A stretch of 16,112 nucleotides of DNA. It comes from Alphaproteobacteria bacterium. GTDB taxonomy: Bacteria; Pseudomonadota; Alphaproteobacteria; RF32; CAG-239. Positions 173 through 12,749 of the stretch are shown here, piece by piece. Numbering within the stretch: position 1 is the first letter of the stretch; each line of letters begins with the position of its first letter. Below the pieces are notes generated by a model. It made no database searches, was not told the origin of the DNA, and saw nothing but the letters and a program-made list of their open reading frames with translations. The DNA lies in contig JAGCTK010000217.1 of assembly GCA_017963715.1 (NCBI GenBank), positions 1 through 16,112 on the forward strand, given 5' to 3'. Position numbers and translations under genes: made by a program.

Positions 173-793
173 ATGGAAGATTTTATATCAAAATATCATG
201 TTTCACGTGAAACATTAGAGGTTTTTTCTCGCTATATCAATATCTTAAGAGAGTGGCAAGAAAAAATGAATCTTGTCAGCCCAAATTCGTTTGAGCAAAT
301 TTGGACGCGGCACATTGCCGACTCGTATCAACTGTATCAATACTTAAGTGCTGACACGCAAAACGTATATGACATCGGGTCCGGCGCGGGTTTTCCGGCT
401 GTTGTGTTGGCGATTGCCTCAATGATGAGTGGCCGTACGACACAGTTTAAATTGATTGAAAGCATCACAAAAAAAACAGTGTATTTAAACGATGTTAGAA
501 ATAAACTCGGCTTAAAAAATGTCGAGATTATCAACGATCGTGCCGAAAATTTGCACGTTAAGCCGGCCGATATCATCACCGCGCGAGCAGTCGCAAACCT
601 CAATAAACTACTCGGTTTAGCGTATCCGCTGACAAACTTGAACACTGTTCTTATTCTGCCAAAGGGGCAGGGCTATGCGCTTGAGGTAGATGAAGCCAAG
701 CAAAATTGGCATTTTGATATCAAGGTCTTGCAAAATGAAGTCGAACCTCAAGGTGTTGTCTTAATACTTTCAAATTTAAGGAAAAAGAGATGA
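173..793 (+). CDS. rsmG: 16S rRNA (guanine(527)-N7)-methyltransferase RsmG (GidB)
   Basis: RsmG makes m7G527 in 16S rRNA using S-adenosylmethionine, and its loss gives low-level streptomycin resistance in several bacteria. The 206-residue protein has the usual family length. The N-terminal part carries REWQEKMNLVSPNSFEQIW followed by RHIADS. The SAM-binding glycine loop DIGSGAGFPAVVLAIA lies near residues 67-82, and the later ARAVANLNKLL block is typical of the family. It starts a + strand operon, and its stop overlaps the parA start as ATGA. Codons 9-14 (HVSRET) contain a parS site. No clear ribosome binding site precedes the ATG, so the transcript may be leaderless. The rsmG-parA-parB order is classic. 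The mnmG gene that often precedes rsmG lies about 3.1 kb downstream of its end instead. Confidence 0.96.
   Translation: MEDFISKYHVSRETLEVFSRYINILREWQEKMNLVSPNSFEQIWTRHIADSYQLYQYLSADTQNVYDIGSGAGFPAVVLAIASMMSGRTTQFKLIESITKKTVYLNDVRNKLGLKNVEIINDRAENLHVKPADIITARAVANLNKLLGLAYPLTNLNTVLILPKGQGYALEVDEAKQNWHFDIKVLQNEVEPQGVVLILSNLRKKR
198..215. other. parS centromere site 1, inside rsmG
   Basis: The sequence ATGTTTCACGTGAAACAT is a perfect 18-base palindrome containing the 16-base parS core TGTTTCACGTGAAACA at 199-214. This matches the widely conserved chromosomal ParB site. It lies in the rsmG reading frame and encodes HVSRET. ParB should load here, bind CTP and spread along the DNA, and ParA would then move the origin region. 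The parB gene is about 1.3 kb downstream. Confidence 0.93.
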
Positions 794-1560
794 AAATCAT
801 TTCGGTGACAAACCGCAAAGGCGGAGTCGGTAAGACAACAACAGCTGTCAATATCGCAACGGCTATGGCAGCCATTGGCAAAAAGGTGGCGCTGTTTGAC
901 CTTGATCCGCAAGGCAACGCCACAACTTCGCTCGGTATCAACAAAAAAGAAATTTCGTGTTCGGCGTATGATGTGCTCATCAACGGCGCAAATATTAGGA
1001 GTGCGCTCCAAACAACGCTTGTGCCGCAGTTTTATATTGTGCCCTCAACACCCGATTTGGCCGCAGCCGAAGTTGAATTAATCAATGTCACGCGACGCGA
1101 GTACATTTTACAAAATGTTTTGCGTGCTCTATCGGGTGATTTTGATTATGTGTTGATTGATTGTCCGCCGTCGCTCAATTTGTTAACGGTTAATGCGCTG
1201 ACGGCCTCAAATTCGGTGATTGTGCCTTTGCAGTGCGAGTTTTTGGCGCTTGAGGGCTTGACGGATTTGGTTAAAAATATCGAGCGCGTCAAACGCATGT
1301 TAAACCCGAATTTGAAGTTGCAAGGCATTGTTTTAACGATGTTTGACAGACGAAACAACTTGAGTTTTATGGTTGAAAAAGATGTGCGCAAATATTTCGG
1401 AGATTTGGTATACCAAACCGTTATTCCGCGCAGTGTGCGCATTTCGGAAGCACCGTCGCACGGCAAGCCGATTATGCTTTACGATTTTAAGAGTATCGGC
1501 GCACAAAGTTACATCAAACTTGCCAAAGAAGTTTTAACAAGAGAAGGAGACATTAAATGA
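790..1560 (+). CDS. parA: Chromosome partitioning ATPase ParA (Soj)
   Basis: ParA is the nucleoid-bound ATPase that moves ParB-parS complexes and so segregates the replication origin. The 256-residue protein begins with the deviant Walker A box KGGVGKTT at residues 10-17, with the signature lysine K10. The Walker A' segment DLDPQGNAT is at about 37-45, and Walker B with VLIDCPPSL is near 120-128. It lacks an N-terminal DNA-binding extension, which fits a chromosomal Soj-type protein rather than a plasmid type Ia ParA. A good AAGGA ribosome binding site lies inside the end of rsmG. The ATG overlaps the rsmG stop, and the gene's own stop overlaps the parB ATG, so translation is probably coupled across all three genes. 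Confidence 0.97.
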   Translation: MKIISVTNRKGGVGKTTTAVNIATAMAAIGKKVALFDLDPQGNATTSLGINKKEISCSAYDVLINGANIRSALQTTLVPQFYIVPSTPDLAAAEVELINVTRREYILQNVLRALSGDFDYVLIDCPPSLNLLTVNALTASNSVIVPLQCEFLALEGLTDLVKNIERVKRMLNPNLKLQGIVLTMFDRRNNLSFMVEKDVRKYFGDLVYQTVIPRSVRISEAPSHGKPIMLYDFKSIGAQSYIKLAKEVLTREGDIK

Positions 1561-2426
1561 GTGAGCAAAAACACGGTCTCGGGCGCGGTTTGGATGCGCT
1601 TTTCGGCGACGAAAACGAGCATTTTGACCTAAACCAGGTTATTCCGGACGAATCAGGCAATAGATTGGTGGAACAGGTTAATGTGGCACTTTTAGTTGCG
1701 CGCAAAGATCAGCCGCGTGAAGATTTTGACGAGGAAAGCCTGATTGACTTAACCGAATCGATCAGACAGAAGGGGATTTTGCAACCGATTTTGGTGCGGC
1801 CGAAAAATAACTTTTTGGAGATTATCGCCGGCGAGCGACGCTACCGAGCGGCTTTGAAAGCCGGTTTACAGATGGTGCCCGTTATTAAAAAGGATTTAAG
1901 CGATGCCGAGGCTTTTGAAATCGCCCTGATTGAAAACATGGTTCGCCAAAACTTAAACCCGATGGAAGAAGCGGCCGGATTTGATAAGTTGATCAAAGAA
2001 TACGGCTATACACACGAGGATTTATCAAAATCTATCAGAAAATCAAGAAGTTATATCACAAACAGTTTGCGTCTTTTGGATTTACCGTTAAGTGTTCAAA
2101 AAATGGTGAGCGACAAACGCTTAAGCGTCGGCCATGCTAAAGTGTTGGTCGGGTTGCAAAATGCCGAAGATATTGCCCAAAAGGTGATTGATAAAGATCT
2201 GAGCGTTCGTCAAACTGAAGAATTGACAAGTCGCATCAAATCGGGTAAAAAATCGGTTGCGCACAGAGTGCAAAACGAAGACTTGCGGGCGATCGAAAAA
2301 CGACTTACCCAGTCTTTGAATGTCAAAGCCAAAATTTCATTCAATGATAAAGGCAAGGGCAAAATTGTTTTGACATACAATAATTTTACGGAACTTGAAA
2401 ATTTATTAAACAAACTTGAAAAATAA
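1557..2426 (+). CDS. parB: Chromosome partitioning protein ParB (Spo0J), CTP-dependent DNA clamp
   Basis: ParB binds parS, hydrolyses CTP and slides or spreads along DNA to form the segrosome. Domains are visible in order. The N-terminal GLGRGLDALFG at 7-17 is the ParA-contacting segment. The CTP-binding and spreading motif GERRYRAA is at 92-99, followed by ENMVRQNLNP at 126-135. A helix-turn-helix lies around 150-175 (THEDLSKSIRKSRSYITNS), and a charged C-terminal dimerisation region spans about 240-289. The length of 289 residues is typical. An AAGGAG ribosome binding site sits at the end of parA. Two perfect parS sites for it lie in this window, one in rsmG and one in mnmG. Confidence 0.97.
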   Translation: MSEQKHGLGRGLDALFGDENEHFDLNQVIPDESGNRLVEQVNVALLVARKDQPREDFDEESLIDLTESIRQKGILQPILVRPKNNFLEIIAGERRYRAALKAGLQMVPVIKKDLSDAEAFEIALIENMVRQNLNPMEEAAGFDKLIKEYGYTHEDLSKSIRKSRSYITNSLRLLDLPLSVQKMVSDKRLSVGHAKVLVGLQNAEDIAQKVIDKDLSVRQTEELTSRIKSGKKSVAHRVQNEDLRAIEKRLTQSLNVKAKISFNDKGKGKIVLTYNNFTELENLLNKLEK

Positions 2427-2437
2427 AGGACTTAAAA

Positions 2438-2683
2438 ATGGCAACAATACTTGAAAAAATGCTTGAAAACTGCAAAGCGCAAGGTTATGAACCGACCGAA
2501 AACATCGAAAAAATCGCCCGCGCGAAAAATATGATGTTCGGGGACGAAGAATGGAAGCGCTGTCCGTGTGATGGGCATAACGACAACCGTTATTGCATCT
2601 CGGAATTGTGCAAAAGCGACATCGAGCGTGACGGAATTTGTCATTGCAGATGCTATCGTAAAACAGGTACGGATAATAAATAA
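2438..2683 (+). CDS. Small cysteine-rich protein, ferredoxin:thioredoxin reductase catalytic-subunit-like
   Basis: This 81-residue protein has eight cysteines: C12, C42, C44, C53, C58, C68, C70 and C72. The CPC pair at 42-44 and the CHC pair at 68-70 match the first and last motifs of the ferredoxin:thioredoxin reductase catalytic beta chain. In that family such cysteines hold a [4Fe-4S] cluster next to a redox-active disulfide. The middle CPC of the plant and cyanobacterial enzyme is replaced by CISELC at 53-58, and the spacing is shorter. It therefore belongs at best to a compact divergent branch. It follows parB by 11 bases with an AAGGA ribosome binding site, so it is the last gene of the par operon before the terminator. 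The Fe-S cluster and the redox role are inferred, and its partner is unknown. Confidence 0.65.
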   Translation: MATILEKMLENCKAQGYEPTENIEKIARAKNMMFGDEEWKRCPCDGHNDNRYCISELCKSDIERDGICHCRCYRKTGTDNK

Positions 2684-2722
2684 TCTGTAAACTTAAAATT
2701 ACTCTCAAATTGTAATAATGTC

Positions 2723-2751
2723 ATTCTCGGCTGTATGCCGAGAATCTTTTT
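2723..2751 (+). terminator. Rho-independent terminator of the rsmG-parA-parB operon
   Basis: A perfect 9-bp stem (ATTCTCGGC at 2723-2731 with GCCGAGAAT at 2737-2745) closes a 5-base loop and is followed by CTTTTTA. The T-run is only on the + strand side, so it ends the rightward operon. Its T-run touches the stop codon of the convergent leucine-rich-repeat gene. Confidence 0.92.
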
Positions 2752-3535
2752 ATTTATATGTGATTCTGACTTTATTTGTTTTACCCGTTACGGCATTCGC
2801 CTCATCAACGCTGTAAATACGTTTTTTGATATAATTTCCTGCCGAAATATCTTTTGTATTATTATACCAATGGTTTTGATAAAAAATTTTATCGCCGTCA
2901 TTGGTGTAACTTAAAATTGCCGGAGATATACTAAGCGGTTTTGTCGGGGGTGGCCAACTGCCGTTATAATCCTCATACTCTAAAGCGTTTTCAAGATATG
3001 TTTGGCACGTGGTTTGTTTTTGATCAGGACAGACTAAATTTGTAATTTTTGAGCCCGTTAATGCTAAATTTGAAATTGAAGAACCCGAATCAAAAAGCGA
3101 TTCCGGTAAAATCAAGGTTTTAACATTTGTACCAGCAACAATACCTTCATGAATAACCTTGATGGATTCGGGCAAAGAAATATTTTTAAGTTTTGCGCAA
3201 CCTTCAAAGGGATACGCACCAATAGATGTGACCGAATCTGAAATTTCAACTTTTTGCAAATTTGGCGATACAACAAAAGCATGAGTGGGAATTGATGATA
3301 TGCCTGAAATACTGACTTCGGTAATATCTTTTCCCCATGGTGCATCGTAATAATCATGATATCCCATAGCGCCTGTGCCGGTAATGGTTAATTTTTGGTT
3401 TTCATCTAAAGACCATTGGCAGTTTGTGCCGTAATTGCCTTGAGCATCTTTCGGACCACAAAAACCGGAAGTCGAATTTTGCGCATAAACATCTGTGTAT
3501 ATACATAGAAAAGCAACTAAAATTATTTTTTTCAT
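2750..3535 (-). CDS. Secreted BspA-type leucine-rich-repeat protein
   Basis: The protein has 261 residues. A signal peptide is clear (MKKIILVAFLCIYTDVYA, cleavage near 18-19), so it should leave the cytoplasm. After a cysteine-bearing entry segment (C26, C39, then DENQKLTITGTGAM) come short BspA/LRR_5-type repeats at about 70-165, with elements such as LQKVEISDSVTSIGAYPFEGC and LKNISLPESIKVI. A second cysteine pair is C169 and C177. The last part ends IYSVDEANAVTGKTNKVRITYK, which looks like a separate C-terminal module. Such proteins often take part in adhesion or surface display, but no ligand can be read from the sequence. GGAG lies seven bases before the ATG. No promoter fits between the gene and the terminator-like hairpin upstream, so expression probably depends on read-through from the structured leader. 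Confidence 0.85.
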   Translation of the reverse strand: MKKIILVAFLCIYTDVYAQNSTSGFCGPKDAQGNYGTNCQWSLDENQKLTITGTGAMGYHDYYDAPWGKDITEVSISGISSIPTHAFVVSPNLQKVEISDSVTSIGAYPFEGCAKLKNISLPESIKVIHEGIVAGTNVKTLILPESLFDSGSSISNLALTGSKITNLVCPDQKQTTCQTYLENALEYEDYNGSWPPPTKPLSISPAILSYTNDGDKIFYQNHWYNNTKDISAGNYIKKRIYSVDEANAVTGKTNKVRITYK

Positions 3536-3561
3536 AGAGTGACTCCGTTTTAATGCGTTAT

Positions 3562-3586
3562 AAAAAACGCCTCGAATTTAGAGACG
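3562..3586 (-). terminator. Intrinsic terminator or attenuator just before the LRR gene
   Basis: On the minus strand, CGTCTC (3586-3581) pairs with GAGGCG (3573-3568, one G-U pair) around a 7-base loop and is followed by six T (3567-3562). An overlapping alternative hairpin, GCGTT (3570-3566) with AACGC (3559-3555), would take over the 3' arm of the terminator. The LRR start codon is 26 bases after the T-run. Confidence 0.6.
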
Positions 3587-3693
3587 ATCAGGGAGTTCGA
3601 AAATCACACTAAGAGAGATGACTCCTAAAATCTTTAGCTTAAAATAAGCCTGTACATGCATTTTAGGCTCCCCGACCAATGCGGGGTAAAACC

Positions 3694-3720
3694 AAAAAAG
3701 CATCCTTAAATGGATACCTT
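3694..3720 (-). terminator. Internal terminator-like hairpin within the structured RNA
   Basis: On the minus strand, AAGGTATCC (3720-3712) can pair with GGATGCTTT (3705-3697, including two G-U pairs) around a 6-base loop, followed by a run of six T (3699-3694) and, two bases later, four more. Its 5' arm shares GGTATC with the alternative hairpin 3713-3718/3724-3729, so the two folds exclude each other, as in an attenuator. Whether it terminates in vivo is not known. Confidence 0.4.
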
Positions 3721-3808
3721 CCAGGTATCTCTTAGTGTTGAGCCTTCGACAGCCCCGAACCTCTCGGTTCTCAACAAAGAAAGCAATAACTTTCTATGTC
3801 TTGCTTTC

Positions 3809-3837
3809 ATTAAATCATAAGTTCATATCATTGTCAA
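3809..3837 (-). promoter_or_regulatory. Strong sigma70-type promoter of the structured RNA and LRR gene
   Basis: On the minus strand, TTGACA (3837-3832) matches the -35 consensus perfectly. A 17-base spacer and TTTAAT (3814-3809, five of six) follow. The expected start is near 3802. It is back to back with the mnmG promoter. Confidence 0.75.
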
Positions 3838-3865
3838 ATAAAAAGTATGCGTGTTAAAATATCGC

Positions 3866-3893
3866 TTGAAATTTGAAGTAAGTGGTGTATAAA
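3866..3893 (+). promoter_or_regulatory. Candidate promoter of mnmG
   Basis: TTGAAA at 3866-3871, a 16-base spacer and TATAAA at 3888-3893 give a good pair. The predicted start is near 3900, about 20 bases before the chosen mnmG ATG, which leaves room for the AAAGGA ribosome binding site at 3908-3913. This also argues against an upstream start for mnmG at 3882, which would precede the transcript. Confidence 0.6.
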
Positions 3894-3920
3894 CATCACT
3901 CAATAACAAAGGATAATGTG

Positions 3921-5777
3921 ATGGCAAAAACTTTTGATGTGATTGTGGTTGGTGGCGGACATGCCGGTTGTGAAGCGGCGGCCGCGTCGGCGCGTATCGG
4001 CGCCAAAACCGCACTTGTGACGCACAAACTTGCAAGCATCGGCGAAATGTCGTGCAATCCTGCCATCGGCGGGTTGGGCAAGGGGCATTTGGTGCGCGAA
4101 ATAGACGCACTCGACGGCTTAATGGGACGTGTGATAGATAAAGCCGGTATTCAGTTTCGGATTTTAAATGCTTCCAAAGGGCCTGCGGTGCAAGGGCCGC
4201 GCGCACAAGCCGACAGAGCGCTTTATAAAAAGTATATGCTTGAGGCTTTGGAAAACCAAGACAATTTAGAGTTGATAGAAGGCGCCGTTGAGGGGCTGGT
4301 TTTGGATATGAACGCCGTTCACGGTGTGACGTTAAATACGGGTGAAACACTGTATTCTCAGGCGGTTGTGTTGACCACAGGCACGTTCTTGAACGGTGTG
4401 ATGTTTATCGGCCATAATACCTCTGTGGGCGGCCGCGTGGGGGATGTGTCGTGCCAAGGTATAACAGTGTATTTAAAAGAGGCCGGACTCAAAGTCGGTC
4501 GTTTGAAGACGGGAACACCGGCACGCTTGAATGGTGAAACGATTAATTGGGATATATTAGAGCGCCAGGGCGGTGATGAACATCCGAAACCGTTTTCTTT
4601 TATGACCGAATCGTTGCCGCAAAAACAGATTGATTGTTTTATCACGCATACAAATGAAGTAACACACAAAATAATTCGCGATAACTTTTCAAAATGCGCG
4701 TTGTTTTCTGGCTTAATCAAGGGTGTTGGTCCGCGTTATTGCCCGAGTATTGAAGATAAACTTGTCAAATTTGCAGACAGAACATCTCACCAAATCTTTT
4801 TGGAACCGGAAGGCTATGATACAAATGTTGTGTATCCGAACGGTATTTCGACATCTTTGCCGGCCGATGTACAGGATGCGTTTATTCATACCATCAAAGG
4901 CCTTGAAAATGTTGAAATTTTGCGTCCTGCTTATGCGATCGAATACGATTATGTCGATCCGCAAGAATTGAACAATAAACTTGAAACCAAAAAGGTCAAA
5001 AATCTGTTTTTAGCCGGGCAAATCAACGGCACGACAGGCTATGAAGAAGCAGCGGCGCAAGGCTTGCTTGCGGGCGCTAATGCGGCGCTGCAGGCAACCG
5101 GACAGGCAAATGCACTCACAATTGATCGTAGTGAAGGTTATATCGGCGTGATGGTTGATGATTTAATTACCAAGGGCGTTGACGAGCCTTATCGTATGTT
5201 TACTTCGCGTTCGGAATATCGGTTGTATTTAAGGGCAGACAATGCGGATTTGCGTTTGACGCAAAAAGGTTATGATTTAGGGCTTGTCGGCGAAAAACGT
5301 TATCAAAAATTCAAAGCCAAAAAGGCAAACATTGATGCGTTGCGTGATGAGGCGATGAGTACCAAAATCGATTATAAAACCTTAAAACAAGCCGGTATAG
5401 CCATTCATCATGACGGCACAGTCAGAACGCTTTTTGACGTGATGGGGTTTGAAAATGTTTCACGTGAAACATTAAATGCTTTATATCCTAAAATCAATCA
5501 GTTAGATGAAGCGGTTGTGAAACAAATCATCATCGAATCGACCTATCACGGATATATCAAGCGCCAACAAGCCGATATTGAAGTTTTCAAAAAAGATGAG
5601 AACTTAAAAATAAGAGATGATATAGATTATACCAAAATCGGCGGCCTGTCCCGCGAGATTGTTGCAAAACTGACAAAAGTCAGGCCTTCAACCATCGGTG
5701 AGGCCTCACGCATCCCGGGAATGACGCCGGCCGCAATCGTGGCTGTGCTGGGATATTTGAAGAAAACACAGCACTAA
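3921..5777 (+). CDS. mnmG: tRNA uridine-5-carboxymethylaminomethyl(34) synthesis protein MnmG (GidA)
   Basis: MnmG is the FAD-binding partner of MnmE; together they modify the wobble uridine U34 of certain tRNAs in the cytoplasm. The start at 3921 gives 618 residues, the normal size. The FAD-binding loop is [16 protein letters not shown] near residues 7-22. Other family blocks are [61 protein letters not shown] and [21 protein letters not shown]. The C-terminal helical region ends in [21 protein letters not shown]. The in-frame ATG at 3882 is rejected because its extension is unrelated to the family and lies in the promoter. Codons 512-517 (NVSRET) carry a second parS site. No mnmE is visible. 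Confidence 0.97.
5454..5473. other. parS centromere site 2, inside mnmG
   Basis: A perfect 20-base palindrome contains the same 16-base core TGTTTCACGTGAAACA (5456-5471) found in rsmG. It encodes NVSRET in the mnmG frame. Two identical 16-base palindromes about 5.2 kb apart on either side of parAB are not expected by chance and fit a chromosomal parS cluster. Confidence 0.93.
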
Positions 5778-10097: not shown

Positions 10098-11411
10098 ATG
10101 TCTTTGTTCAGTGCGCAAATTGCTGCCGTTTCGGTGTTAATTGTCTGCTATGTGTTTTTGATAACGGAAAAACTCAACCGTGCCGTGACGGTTTTGCTCG
10201 GTGCATCTGCTTTGATTGTGTTAAAAGTGTTAACACAAAAATCTGCAATCTCTGGGATTGATTTTAACACGATTTTACTTCTTATTGGCATGATGGTAAT
10301 TGTCGGCATTGCCGAAAAATCGGGTATGTTTCAAGCGCTTGCAATTTTAAGTGCAAAAGTTGTTAAAGCCTCGCCGCGCGGGATATTGCTGATGTTCGGT
10401 GTTTTGACGGCTGTTTTGTCGGCCCTGCTTGATAATGTGACGACAGTTTTGCTGATTGTGCCGATAACACTCGACTTGACACGTGCGCTCAAACTCAATC
10501 CGATGCCGTATTTGTTGCTTGAAATATTTACCTCAAACATCGGCGGCACGGCAACACTCATCGGTGATCCGCCCAATATTTTGATCGGCTCGGCGCTTCA
10601 TTTATCGTTTATGGATTTTGTGCTTGAATTGACACCGATTGTAATCATCAATTTGGCACTTATTTTGATTGTATTTGACATCTTGGTCGGGCAAAAACTC
10701 AAAGCTGATGAGGCAAGCAGAGCCGATATATTAAAAATTTCGGCCAAAGAGATGATTACCAAAACGTCGCTGTTTTATCAGTCGCTCTTTGTGTTAACAT
10801 TGCTGTTAATCGGCTTTGTGACGTCAGAGTATTTAAGAGTGGAAAACGGGACAATCGCACTGTTTGGTGCAGCGTTGATGCTGTTTTTATATACCTACGG
10901 CGAAGCACACATGCCGCGTGACCAAAAGGTTGAAGATGCATTTTCACTGGTTGACTGGACAACAATTTTTTTCTTTTGCGGGTTGTTTGTGATTGTTTTT
11001 TCGCTTGAAACAACGGGGCTTCTTGAGATGCTCGGCGCAAAATTGGCGGCGCTCACAAAAAACAGTGTTCAACATGCAACATTTGCGGTGTTGTGGCTGT
11101 CAGCCGTCTTATCAACTTTGATTGATAATATTCCGTTTGTGGCAACGATGATTCCGACACTTAAATCGATGGAGGTCACACTCGGCGGGCGTGAGGCAAT
11201 GATGCCGGTGTGGTGGGCATTGTCTTTGGGTTCATGCTTGGGCGGTAACGGTTCGCTGATTGCGGCATCCGCCAACGTGATTGTGGCCGGCTTTGCTTCA
11301 CGCACGGGGCAGCCGATTCGTTTTGCAAAATTTTTGTTATACGGCTTGCCCGTGATGTTGGTATCGATGTTGTTGTCGAGCCTTTATCTGTACTTAAAAT
11401 ATTTTTTATAA
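10098..11411 (+). CDS. ArsB/NhaD/P-protein-type ion transporter, copy 1
   Basis: This is a 437-residue polytopic inner-membrane protein of the ion transporter superfamily that includes ArsB, NhaD, YbiR and the P protein. It has about 11-12 hydrophobic segments in two inverted halves. Each half carries a discontinuous-helix signature. The first half has LLDNVTTVLLIVP around 110-122, then SNIGGTATLIGDPPNILIGSAL from 146. The second half has IDNIPFVATMIP near 342-353, then MMPVWWALSLGSCLGGNGSLI. SNIGGTATLIGDPPN is the hallmark of the Na+/H+, arsenite and organic-anion branch. The substrate cannot be read. There is no arsR, arsC or arsA nearby, so arsenite is not supported. AAGGA precedes the ATG. 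A close paralogue follows after 15 bases. Confidence 0.85.
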   Translation: MSLFSAQIAAVSVLIVCYVFLITEKLNRAVTVLLGASALIVLKVLTQKSAISGIDFNTILLLIGMMVIVGIAEKSGMFQALAILSAKVVKASPRGILLMFGVLTAVLSALLDNVTTVLLIVPITLDLTRALKLNPMPYLLLEIFTSNIGGTATLIGDPPNILIGSALHLSFMDFVLELTPIVIINLALILIVFDILVGQKLKADEASRADILKISAKEMITKTSLFYQSLFVLTLLLIGFVTSEYLRVENGTIALFGAALMLFLYTYGEAHMPRDQKVEDAFSLVDWTTIFFFCGLFVIVFSLETTGLLEMLGAKLAALTKNSVQHATFAVLWLSAVLSTLIDNIPFVATMIPTLKSMEVTLGGREAMMPVWWALSLGSCLGGNGSLIAASANVIVAGFASRTGQPIRFAKFLLYGLPVMLVSMLLSSLYLYLKYFL

Positions 11412-11426
11412 CGGGGCAGGGGACGT

Positions 11427-12749
11427 ATGTTTGATTTGACTTTATTGACTGACCCGAAAGTTGTTGCTTCCATGATTATGGCGGCATGTTATATGGTGCT
11501 GTTTTCCGAAAAAGTCAATCGCGCGGTTGTGACATTAATGGCGGCAACATTTATGATTTTGTCGGGCGTGATGACACAATCTCAAGCAATTGCCGGTATT
11601 GATTTTAATACCATCTCCCTTTTAATCGGTATGATGGTGATTGTCTCTGTCACCGAGCGATCCGGCCTGTTTCAGTTTGTTGCGGTGTTGAGCGCCCAAA
11701 AAGTGCGTGCCAATCCGATCGGTATTCTGATAATGCTTGGTATTATTACGGCTGTTTTTTCGGCATTTTTAGACAATGTGACGACCGTTTTGTTGATTGT
11801 GCCGGTCAGTGTGCAAATTGCTCGAAAATTGGAAATCGACCCGTATCCGTATCTGATTTTAGAAATTTTTGCCTCAAACATCGGCGGAACGGCCACACTC
11901 ATCGGTGATCCTCCCAATATTTTGATCGGCTCTGCACTTAATTTGTCGTTTACCGATTTTCTTGTCAATTTGGCACCTGTCGTGTTGACGGTGGTGACTG
12001 TTTTGATTGCGGGATTTGCACTGATTTTCAGAAATGCGCTTAAAACATCAGCCAAAAACAAAGCGGCGGTCATGCGTATGAATGCATACGCGCACTTAAC
12101 GGATAGGGTGTTGTTGTATAAATCTTTGATAGTCTTGGGATGTGTCATTGTCGGATTTATTATGGCCGAAAAAATACATCTTGAAAACGGCGTAATTGCG
12201 CTGTGCGGTGCGGCGGTTCTGCTGTTGCTTTATACATTAAACGATGCACCGTTCAAACGAGACGACAAGACGGAAGAAATGTTTAATTTGGTCGACTGGA
12301 CAACGATTTTCTTCTTTTGCGGGTTGTTTATGGTGGTGTTCGGGTTAGAGCAAACGGGCGTGCTTGAAATGCTCGGTCAAAAATTTATTTCGATGACGGA
12401 GGGTAGCATTAAACGAGCGACTTTCGCCATTTTAAGTATATCGGCGATTGTTTCGGCAGCCATTGATAATATTCCGTTTGTGGCAACGATGATTCCGATT
12501 TTAAAATCAATGGAATCATCACTCGGCGGGCGCGAGGCGATGATGCCGGTGTGGTGGGCATTGTCGGTGGGTTCGTGCTTTGGCGGCAACGGCTCATTGA
12601 TTGGCGCTTCGGCCAATGTGATTGTGGCGGGACTTGCCGCACGTGAAGGACATCCGATCAGATTTTTGACATTTTTGTTATGGTCAATACCGGTGATGTT
12701 GTTATCGGTATTGGTGGCCGGAATTTATATTTATTTTAAGTATTGGTAA
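11427..12749 (+). CDS. ArsB/NhaD/P-protein-type ion transporter, copy 2
   Basis: This 440-residue paralogue of the preceding gene aligns along its whole length with almost no gaps. It has the same LDNVTTVLLIVP, SNIGGTATLIGDPPNILIGSAL, IDNIPFVATMIP and MMPVWWALS-GSC-GGNGSLI signatures. Several DNA stretches are nearly identical to copy 1, including 37 matching bases at 12462-12498. The most different parts are the N-terminus and the central cytoplasmic loop (RNALKTSAKNKAAVMRM against the loop of copy 1). It has a GGGGA-type ribosome binding site and is surely co-transcribed. The two may form a heterodimer or carry different substrates. Its end is six bases from the convergent mlaC stop, with no hairpin terminator visible between. 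Confidence 0.85.
   Translation: MFDLTLLTDPKVVASMIMAACYMVLFSEKVNRAVVTLMAATFMILSGVMTQSQAIAGIDFNTISLLIGMMVIVSVTERSGLFQFVAVLSAQKVRANPIGILIMLGIITAVFSAFLDNVTTVLLIVPVSVQIARKLEIDPYPYLILEIFASNIGGTATLIGDPPNILIGSALNLSFTDFLVNLAPVVLTVVTVLIAGFALIFRNALKTSAKNKAAVMRMNAYAHLTDRVLLYKSLIVLGCVIVGFIMAEKIHLENGVIALCGAAVLLLLYTLNDAPFKRDDKTEEMFNLVDWTTIFFFCGLFMVVFGLEQTGVLEMLGQKFISMTEGSIKRATFAILSISAIVSAAIDNIPFVATMIPILKSMESSLGGREAMMPVWWALSVGSCFGGNGSLIGASANVIVAGLAAREGHPIRFLTFLLWSIPVMLLSVLVAGIYIYFKYW

Follow-up and report, generated by a model that had tools for sequence, protein, structure and literature searches.

The window, i.e., the whole stretch of 16,112 nucleotides that was analyzed, carries on its minus strand a gene for a BspA-type LRR protein, and the sequence between this gene and an upstream promoter is rich in complementary segments. 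The question raised by this locus is what kind of RNA these segments build, and whether it serves the gene that follows. The first-pass annotation had left it as an unclassified RNA, either stand-alone or a new cis-regulatory leader. We found that the window contains a real structured RNA leader, which occurs in many copies across a group of gut bacteria, and, of the two options, the leader before a surface protein gene was the one that stood. This RNA is very probably of the same kind as C4 and sRNA-Xcc1, and we give a probability of about 0.7 to the reading in which the LRR leader functions as a C4-type antisense-RNA switch. The new part lies in the many copies before surface genes and in a terminator that takes the place of the a2 and b2 targets.

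Architecture of the LRR leader

The LRR gene (2750..3535, minus strand, as are all features below) encodes 261 aa with a PF13306 match (9.2e-15) and, by eye, a signal-peptide-like start; it is the putative gene regulated by the leader. The promoter at 3809..3837, already listed in the first-pass annotation, was read directly: the −35 box TTGACA (3837-3832) and the −10 box TTTAAT (3814-3809) are separated by a 17-nt spacer. Our promoter scan initially omitted it because an A was demanded at position 2 of the −10 box; when this rule was dropped, the promoter agreed with the consensus at 11 of 12 positions. The transcript would start near 3802, judging from the promoter. A computed fold placed a first hairpin at 3773..3800, whose sequence varies among copies; a hairpin was seen by eye in many of them. 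It is followed by P0 (GAACC-GAGA-GGTTC, 3757..3770), which is the GAGA tetraloop hairpin previously reported; it is invariant in the close set and has both-side changes in 3/5 pairs in the wide set. The P1 hairpin (3740..3755) was 96.8% paired, also with both-side changes in 3/5 pairs, and its 6-nt loop GTCGAA (3750-3745) is the segment called here a', comparable to a1 of phage P1. Right after it stands b' (CACTAAGAGA, 3728..3737), the partner of b and comparable to b1 of the phage. The 11-bp long-range helix announced by the earlier reading was found where ACACTAAGAGA at 3738-3728 pairs with 3616-3606.

Further downstream, the P3 hairpin GATACC:GGTATC (3713..3729) was 95.6% paired in the 27-copy set described below and showed both-side changes in 5/5 pairs in the wide set. 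P3 is mutually exclusive with T1, an internal terminator-like hairpin (GGTATCC-GGATGC-TTTTTT, 3694..3718) that was missing from the first list of features. Next come the P5 hairpin CCCC:GGGG (3670..3686) and a compact C4/sRNA-Xcc1-like domain at 3586..3677, composed of S1, P6, P7 and a. In this domain, the helix S1 (3677-3668 with 3595-3586) encloses P6 (3667-3660 with 3631-3624) and the short hairpin P7 (3602..3623), which has both-side changes in 4/6 pairs and bears b (TCTCTTAGTG, 3616-3607) in its loop; the segment a (TTCGA, 3597..3601), partner of a', lies beside it. The leader ends in the intrinsic terminator T2 (CGTCTC-TAAATTC-GAGGCG-TTTTTT, 3562..3586), 26 nt 5' of the ATG at 3535, as had been described.

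Copies, distribution and covariation

A DNA search detected five copies of the element in its own genome, the other four being 73-75% identical; of 11 genomes from the genus, six had copies, up to 18 each. We aligned 27 full copies from different places with MAFFT, without structure; this set comprised the copies with one 5' motif and a parsable 3' end, and a copy at a contig end (L005) was excluded. When the hand-drawn fold was laid on the alignment, 98.2% of the cells paired, and both-side changes were found in 24 of the 51 pairs (175 cells, versus 46 after shuffling). Structures slid along the same alignment paired at only 32-50%, a comparison that favors the hand-drawn fold, since it was derived from the same 27 sequences. 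A covariance model built from these copies (R1) matched at least 126 of the 152 genomes of the bacterial family, in 14 of 16 genera, with 1 to at least 19 copies per genome and at least 15 in the genome of the window; over the whole order, which has one genome more than the family, the count stayed at no fewer than 126. A second, full-length model from 50 diverse copies (R2), whose alignment was fitted to the structure, gave both-side changes in 40/51 pairs; in a sample of 385 genomes of the class, it had matches in 37, including five of the same family. The compensatory changes that the first-pass annotation expected of a structured RNA were thus found once homologous copies had been collected, and the covariation was strong. 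The named relatives identified by MnmG, such as Azospirillum sp. CAG:239, belong to the uncultured alphaproteobacteria, and many come from the rumen or gut; an exact-pattern scan of the named genomes yielded no copy.

Rfam searches at the gathering threshold gave no match in the window, in agreement with the previous statement that no tmRNA, 6S, SRP, RNase P or known riboswitch was recognized, and below this threshold the matches on the element were at chance level, sRNA-Xcc1 excepted. Unclassified therefore holds in the sense that no Rfam family reaches its threshold, but the RNA is far from single, and its architecture and sub-threshold homology place it among the phage antisense RNAs of the C4/sRNA-Xcc1 type. 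It represents a large family with strong covariation, uncatalogued in Rfam 15. Among the 136 copies with enough upstream sequence, a promoter of at least 10/12 consensus positions was found in 36, compared with 6% of block-shuffled sequences, and support for the promoter across copies is therefore moderate. Two side observations came from these searches. A true 6S RNA was detected in L069, elsewhere than the element. In addition, L182 contains, just 3' of a full copy, a further partial match to the conserved 3' region (G453:C6, 2395-2438, minus strand), as if the module had been duplicated and its 5' half lost.

Position of the copies and genes that follow

Downstream genes were called with a simple custom ORF caller. 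In 138 distinct copies, the next gene was codirectional in 120 and opposite in 7, and none was called in 11; the distance from the core end to the start codon had a median of 55 nt and exceeded 600 nt in five of the 120. This arrangement bears on the possibility that the element is a small RNA gene in its own right, with other mRNAs as targets, next to which the surface gene is incidental. Its own promoter and terminator would suit such a gene, and the title of a 2011 paper terms sRNA-Xcc1, the related RNA treated below, trans-acting. However, codirectional neighbors in 120 of the 127 copies with a called gene, at so short a distance, argue against it, and the conserved 5' half would be left without a role; we thus consider this explanation improbable.

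Pfam analysis of 114 of the 115 proteins encoded downstream, in which families may share proteins, found LRR_5 (44), LRR_8 (11), Bundlin (11), PilS (8), HTH_3 (4), Autotransporter (3) and SNase (3), along with rarer families. LRR, prepilin-like and autotransporter genes are the recurrent ones, and several further proteins appeared lipoprotein-like by eye. Among these 114 proteins, no antirepressor family was present in the best 25 of the 51 families listed, and the window gene itself is LRR_5. Some neighbors were of other kinds: DUF4268 proteins follow the module in two distant alphaproteobacteria (L190, L191), and Cro/C1-type HTH proteins with a common QQVQKYE motif, noted by eye, follow it in L150, L154, L168 and L194; both may be a mark of phage or defence origin. 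In L007, L009 and L028, an interspersed repeat (CGTCATCC...TTCAGGATCT type, by eye) lies between T2 and the start codon, and the gap is longer.

Terminators and mutually exclusive folds

The terminator T2 was found after the core in 133 of 137 copies, versus 3% of shuffled sequences. T1 was detected in 37 of the 41 close copies, versus 12% of the shuffled ones, and in 47/97 outside the close set. The 3' arm of P5 (GGTCGGGGAG) is complementary to the tail of the element (CTCYCCGACC), and this pairing is S1; P5 and S1 share strands and are mutually exclusive. Both segments could be parsed in 119 of the 138 copies, 19 being left out, and in 112 of the 119 they paired at 9 or 10 of 10 positions, with one bulge allowed. 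With the 49 distinct combinations, none of 5000 permutations was as good when the bulge was allowed, and 12 of 5000 were as good without it, figures for which the related copies are not independent. In addition, S1 covaries across the class. P5, examined in 20 distant alphaproteobacterial copies, paired hardly better than shuffled arms. The 3' strand of S1 and the 5' arm of T2 have 2-6 nt in common in 128/137 copies, and a single nucleotide in the window.

Equilibrium folding of the full window leader, in which pseudoknots are not modeled, gave a best structure of −90.7 kcal/mol with a T2 probability of 0.01, part of T2 being paired elsewhere. With T2 forced the energy was −87.7 kcal/mol, and with S1 forced −76.4 kcal/mol, under the same treatment of pseudoknots; the ground state predicted for this leader is therefore distinct from both the T2 and the S1 state. 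Co-transcriptional folding may deviate from this equilibrium.

Such alternative folds would also be expected from a new riboswitch or protein-sensing attenuator, in which the conserved loops would make up the binding pocket, binding would shift the balance of P5 and S1 and thereby control termination, and a':a and b':b would be structural helices. The mutual exclusion of P5 and S1 and the leader position fit this model, and the unpaired motifs GTATGTnCA and CTAAAGG are strongly conserved; moreover, in the equilibrium fold of the window leader both a':a and b':b remained paired in cis. In the Rfam searches, the element matched no known riboswitch class. Against this model, the genes downstream share no evident pathway, as far as the Pfam analysis of the 114 proteins goes. 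Two further points against it come from the known RNAs considered next: the two most variable helices sit at the positions where phage P1 has its antisense pairs a/a1 and b/b1, and mapping of the related sRNA-Xcc1 revealed a free small RNA (PMC2996969). Taken together, we regard a sensing attenuator as unlikely.

Comparison with C4 of phage P1

Phage P1 employs its C4 antisense-RNA switch to control a gene that promotes lysis, and C4 is characterized as a processed small RNA by which its own operon is silenced. In the phage P1 record, the order is promoters, a1, b1, C4 RNA, a2, b2, icd and ant1. The C4 fold consists of an outer helix and two hairpins, with the complement of b1 in the second loop, followed by that of a1. 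The a1 site itself is part of a hairpin, described by Rfam c4-a1b1. Between b1 and C4 there is a further, terminator-like hairpin, at which the Rfam model isrK scores 35 bits against a cut-off of 50. The record gives a2 and b2 as the sites of icd-ant translation repression. The window element resembles C4 (RF01695) and c4-a1b1 (RF03163) in that a promoter, a1 in a hairpin, b1 and a terminator-like hairpin occur in the same order; its 3' part likewise has an outer helix with two hairpins, the second of which bears b in its loop, and a beside the closing helix; the gene follows. In terms of complementarity and order, therefore, the element has a1/b1-type targets upstream of an RNA that contains both a and b, arranged as in C4.

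The models gave less. None of C4, c4-a1b1 and sRNA-Xcc1 reached its Rfam threshold in the window. When R3, a covariance model of the 3' domain of the element made from 32 of 46 domain sequences, was run on a 2-kb stretch of phage P1, C4 was the best place, with a weak score of 13.7 bits (E 0.033). The link to C4 itself thus rests mainly on architecture, and for this reason we call the element C4-type by architecture and not a member of RF01695. There are also differences. We searched for a2/b2-like targets 12-62 nt after the core in 120 copies, and complementarity to the own copy (15.1) was close to that with other copies (14.8), 32 of 500 permutations being as high; before the start codon, where C4 has a2 and b2, the element has none detected, and the intrinsic terminator T2 stands there. 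Moreover, P6 is longer in the element, surface genes replace the antirepressor, and there are many copies per genome. From its sequence, this branch looks built to act on termination.

There are precedents for such action. The CI RNA of satellite phage P4 is described in PMC4825925 as ending transcription by pairing with upstream and downstream targets, and, according to the same source, both CI RNA and IsrK of Gifsy-1 are encoded in a leader, pair with that leader or with their operon, and affect termination or read-through. We liken both to the element by description, the sole contact between models being the isrK match in phage P1.

Kinship with sRNA-Xcc1

The Rfam model of sRNA-Xcc1 (RF02221) gave 23 bits (E 2.9) in the window, against a cut-off of 53 bits, and this weak match (L001 1550-1647, window 3579-3676) coincided with the 3' domain of the element. 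In 13 distant loci, the same domain was matched at 31-37 bits in four, with an E of 5e-4 for one alone. The 87-nt RF02221 model folds into counterparts of S1, P6 and P7, all present in the 3' domain. In the family of the window genome, 21 of 33 genomes matched RF02221 at E ≤0.001, one above the cut-off, and at E 0.001 there was no match in the own genome; among the matches listed, RF02221 sites and R1 sites were different. When R2 was run on 20 of the RF02221-like sites from this family, five matched at the RF02221 site (E 4e-9 to 4e-6), and these bridge both models. At the level of the phylum, RF02221 was present in 57 of 398 genomes, 49 of which fall outside the class of the element. Thirty of these phylum loci were searched with R3, and seven matches, all at RF02221 sites and in six of the 30 loci, were found (best 1.3e-5); R2 matched none of the same 30.

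The same 30 loci were searched for complementary segments. Those upstream were complementary to the own P7/a region (own 22.1, cross 17.1, 0/2000 permutations), although the own upstream segment was the single best partner in just 11 of the 30, and a terminator-like hairpin stood before the domain in 26/30, as called by a lenient script. The fold, the sub-threshold matches in both directions, these upstream segments and the hairpin are the features shared with the element. In contrast, the RF02221 loci also showed downstream complementarity (18.8 versus 14.8, 0/2000 permutations), and their next ORFs included phage genes: among the first ORFs 3' of RF02221 scanned from 25 of the 30 loci, short or doubtful first ORFs being excluded, there were Bro-N (5), Phage_pRha (3), P22_AR_N (1) and KilA-N (1), which are phage antirepressor or regulator families. 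In a separate run on downstream ORFs, 14 of 20 were used after the same exclusion.

In Xanthomonas, sRNA-Xcc1 is reported upstream of symE in an integron cassette (PMC12444791), and it was mapped as an 88-nt RNA (PMC2996969). One paper of the open PMC literature names both C4 antisense RNA and sRNA-Xcc1, and its passages give them as separate families. Our comparison suggests that both, although separate in Rfam, are one kind of module, which occurs many times before surface proteins of uncultured gut bacteria. It also raises the question of whether sRNA-Xcc1, described as trans-acting, is the 3' part of a self-targeting leader. We conclude that the window element is a divergent self-targeting antisense module of the C4/sRNA-Xcc1 type, used outside phage immunity.

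Some individual loci deserve mention. In two RF02221-like sequences of the own family, stretches around the ribosome-binding region were complementary, by eye, to the own tail; by eye as well, L330 and L331, RF02221-like sites of this family, seem to possess, besides a T2-like hairpin, a segment that covers the ribosome-binding site and could pair with the own tail, an arrangement that would join the C4 and window layouts. L210 has an sRNA-Xcc1 site and, about 1.3 kb away on that strand, a match to c4-2 RNA (RF02944; 2890-2958, minus strand), which at 34.8 bits stays under the cut-off of 41.

Copy-specific complementarity of a and b

The P7 loop supplies the 3' strand of the long-range helix, and the other variable helix takes its 5' strand from the loop of the P1 hairpin; both helices can therefore be read as loop-to-strand pairings, b':b and a':a. 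The complementary arms listed by the first-pass annotation are thus real, with the addition that two of them occupy the target and antisense positions of a C4/sRNA-Xcc1-type system. In an alignment-based count, a' and a were complementary at 5/5 positions in 136 of 138 copies, and b' and b at 8 or 9 of 9 in 135 of 138. Moreover, the score of the 5' region against its own 3' region was 21.9, versus 13.9 against other copies, and none of 500 permutations was as high (120 copies).

To compare copies within a genome, 93 of the 138 were used, in ten genomes. Both addresses matched in 9 of 970 ordered pairs of different copies, with 96 pairs matching at a and 96 at b. About 9.5 double matches are expected if the two are independent, and therefore we do not claim selection against cross-talk. 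An earlier parse of 112/138 copies, in which none of 608 within-genome ordered pairs matched at both a and b, is superseded by the alignment-based count. Between the four genomes of the genus, 34 of 1412 pairs matched at both, as expected of orthologues. From these sequences, each module seems to address mostly itself alone. The data fit self-addressed switches; any covarying helices would look alike, and copy-specific pairing would also be expected if a':a and b':b were plain structural helices.

Proposed mechanism

Under the reading that we prefer, a C4-type antisense switch, the 5' half of the leader would display two target sites, a' in the loop of the P1 hairpin and b' right after it, and the 3' half would fold into a compact C4/sRNA-Xcc1-like RNA with b in the P7 loop and a beside it, complementary to its own a' and b'. 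This 3' domain may accumulate as a small RNA, like sRNA-Xcc1. Pairing of a and b with a' and b', in cis or from another copy of the transcript, would then set the balance between a stop at T1 or T2 and read-through. In most copies, S1 and T2 would compete for their few common bases, an open S1 leading to termination and a closed S1 to read-through; with an overlap of one base, this step is weakest in the window, and T1 may therefore matter more there. A second copy of the small RNA that occupies a' and b' could let S1 close and give read-through, the reverse of C4; alternatively, pairing that favors T1 would silence the gene. The sign of the regulation, the processing and the choice between cis and trans action are what we infer from this layout.

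A broader idea, which we put forward tentatively and with less than even confidence, is that alphaproteobacteria of gut and rumen turned a phage immunity RNA into genome-wide self-addressed switches, with up to 15-19 modules per genome, each with a two-part a/b address and one surface or secreted protein, so that premature termination would yield varied surface repertoires. Should pairing work in trans, the a/b code would represent a natural set of mostly non-cross-reacting RNA switches.

Genomic surroundings and mobility

In the window, the module is flanked by housekeeping genes of the chromosome: rsmG, parA and parB lie to one side and mnmG to the other. R1 was run on the surroundings of mnmG in two partly overlapping sets of relatives, nine from the genus, with flanks of about 1.5 kb that were shorter at contig ends, and 80 named ones, with flanks of up to 3 kb. 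It found no copy in either set; the window copy therefore looks like a local gain. This absence, together with the integron cassettes that carry sRNA-Xcc1 (PMC12444791), would agree with a mobile element, non-coding or a gene cassette, for which the important fold is that of the single-stranded DNA, as in integron attC, with regulation being secondary. The conservation of the terminators and of the spacing to the start codon, nevertheless, speaks against this explanation, which we rate as very improbable.

A copy of the module was also observed in a virus-classified contig, IMGVR_UViG_3300002334_000366 (L324, 7987-8150, minus strand; R2 2.7e-17). By eye, the genes of this contig include terminase-like ones and a cluster of large ATPase-like ones, possibly a defence island. 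Two other exact patterns had no match in the same virus collection. As for gene order, rsmG, parA and parB come first in the window and mnmG after the LRR module (173-5777), and in two relatives (L233, L240) mnmG is followed by rsmG and parA. Elsewhere in the window, two adjacent and very similar genes for CitMHS/ArsB-type transporters (10098-11411 and 11427-12749; Pfam was run on the first) are apparently a tandem duplication.
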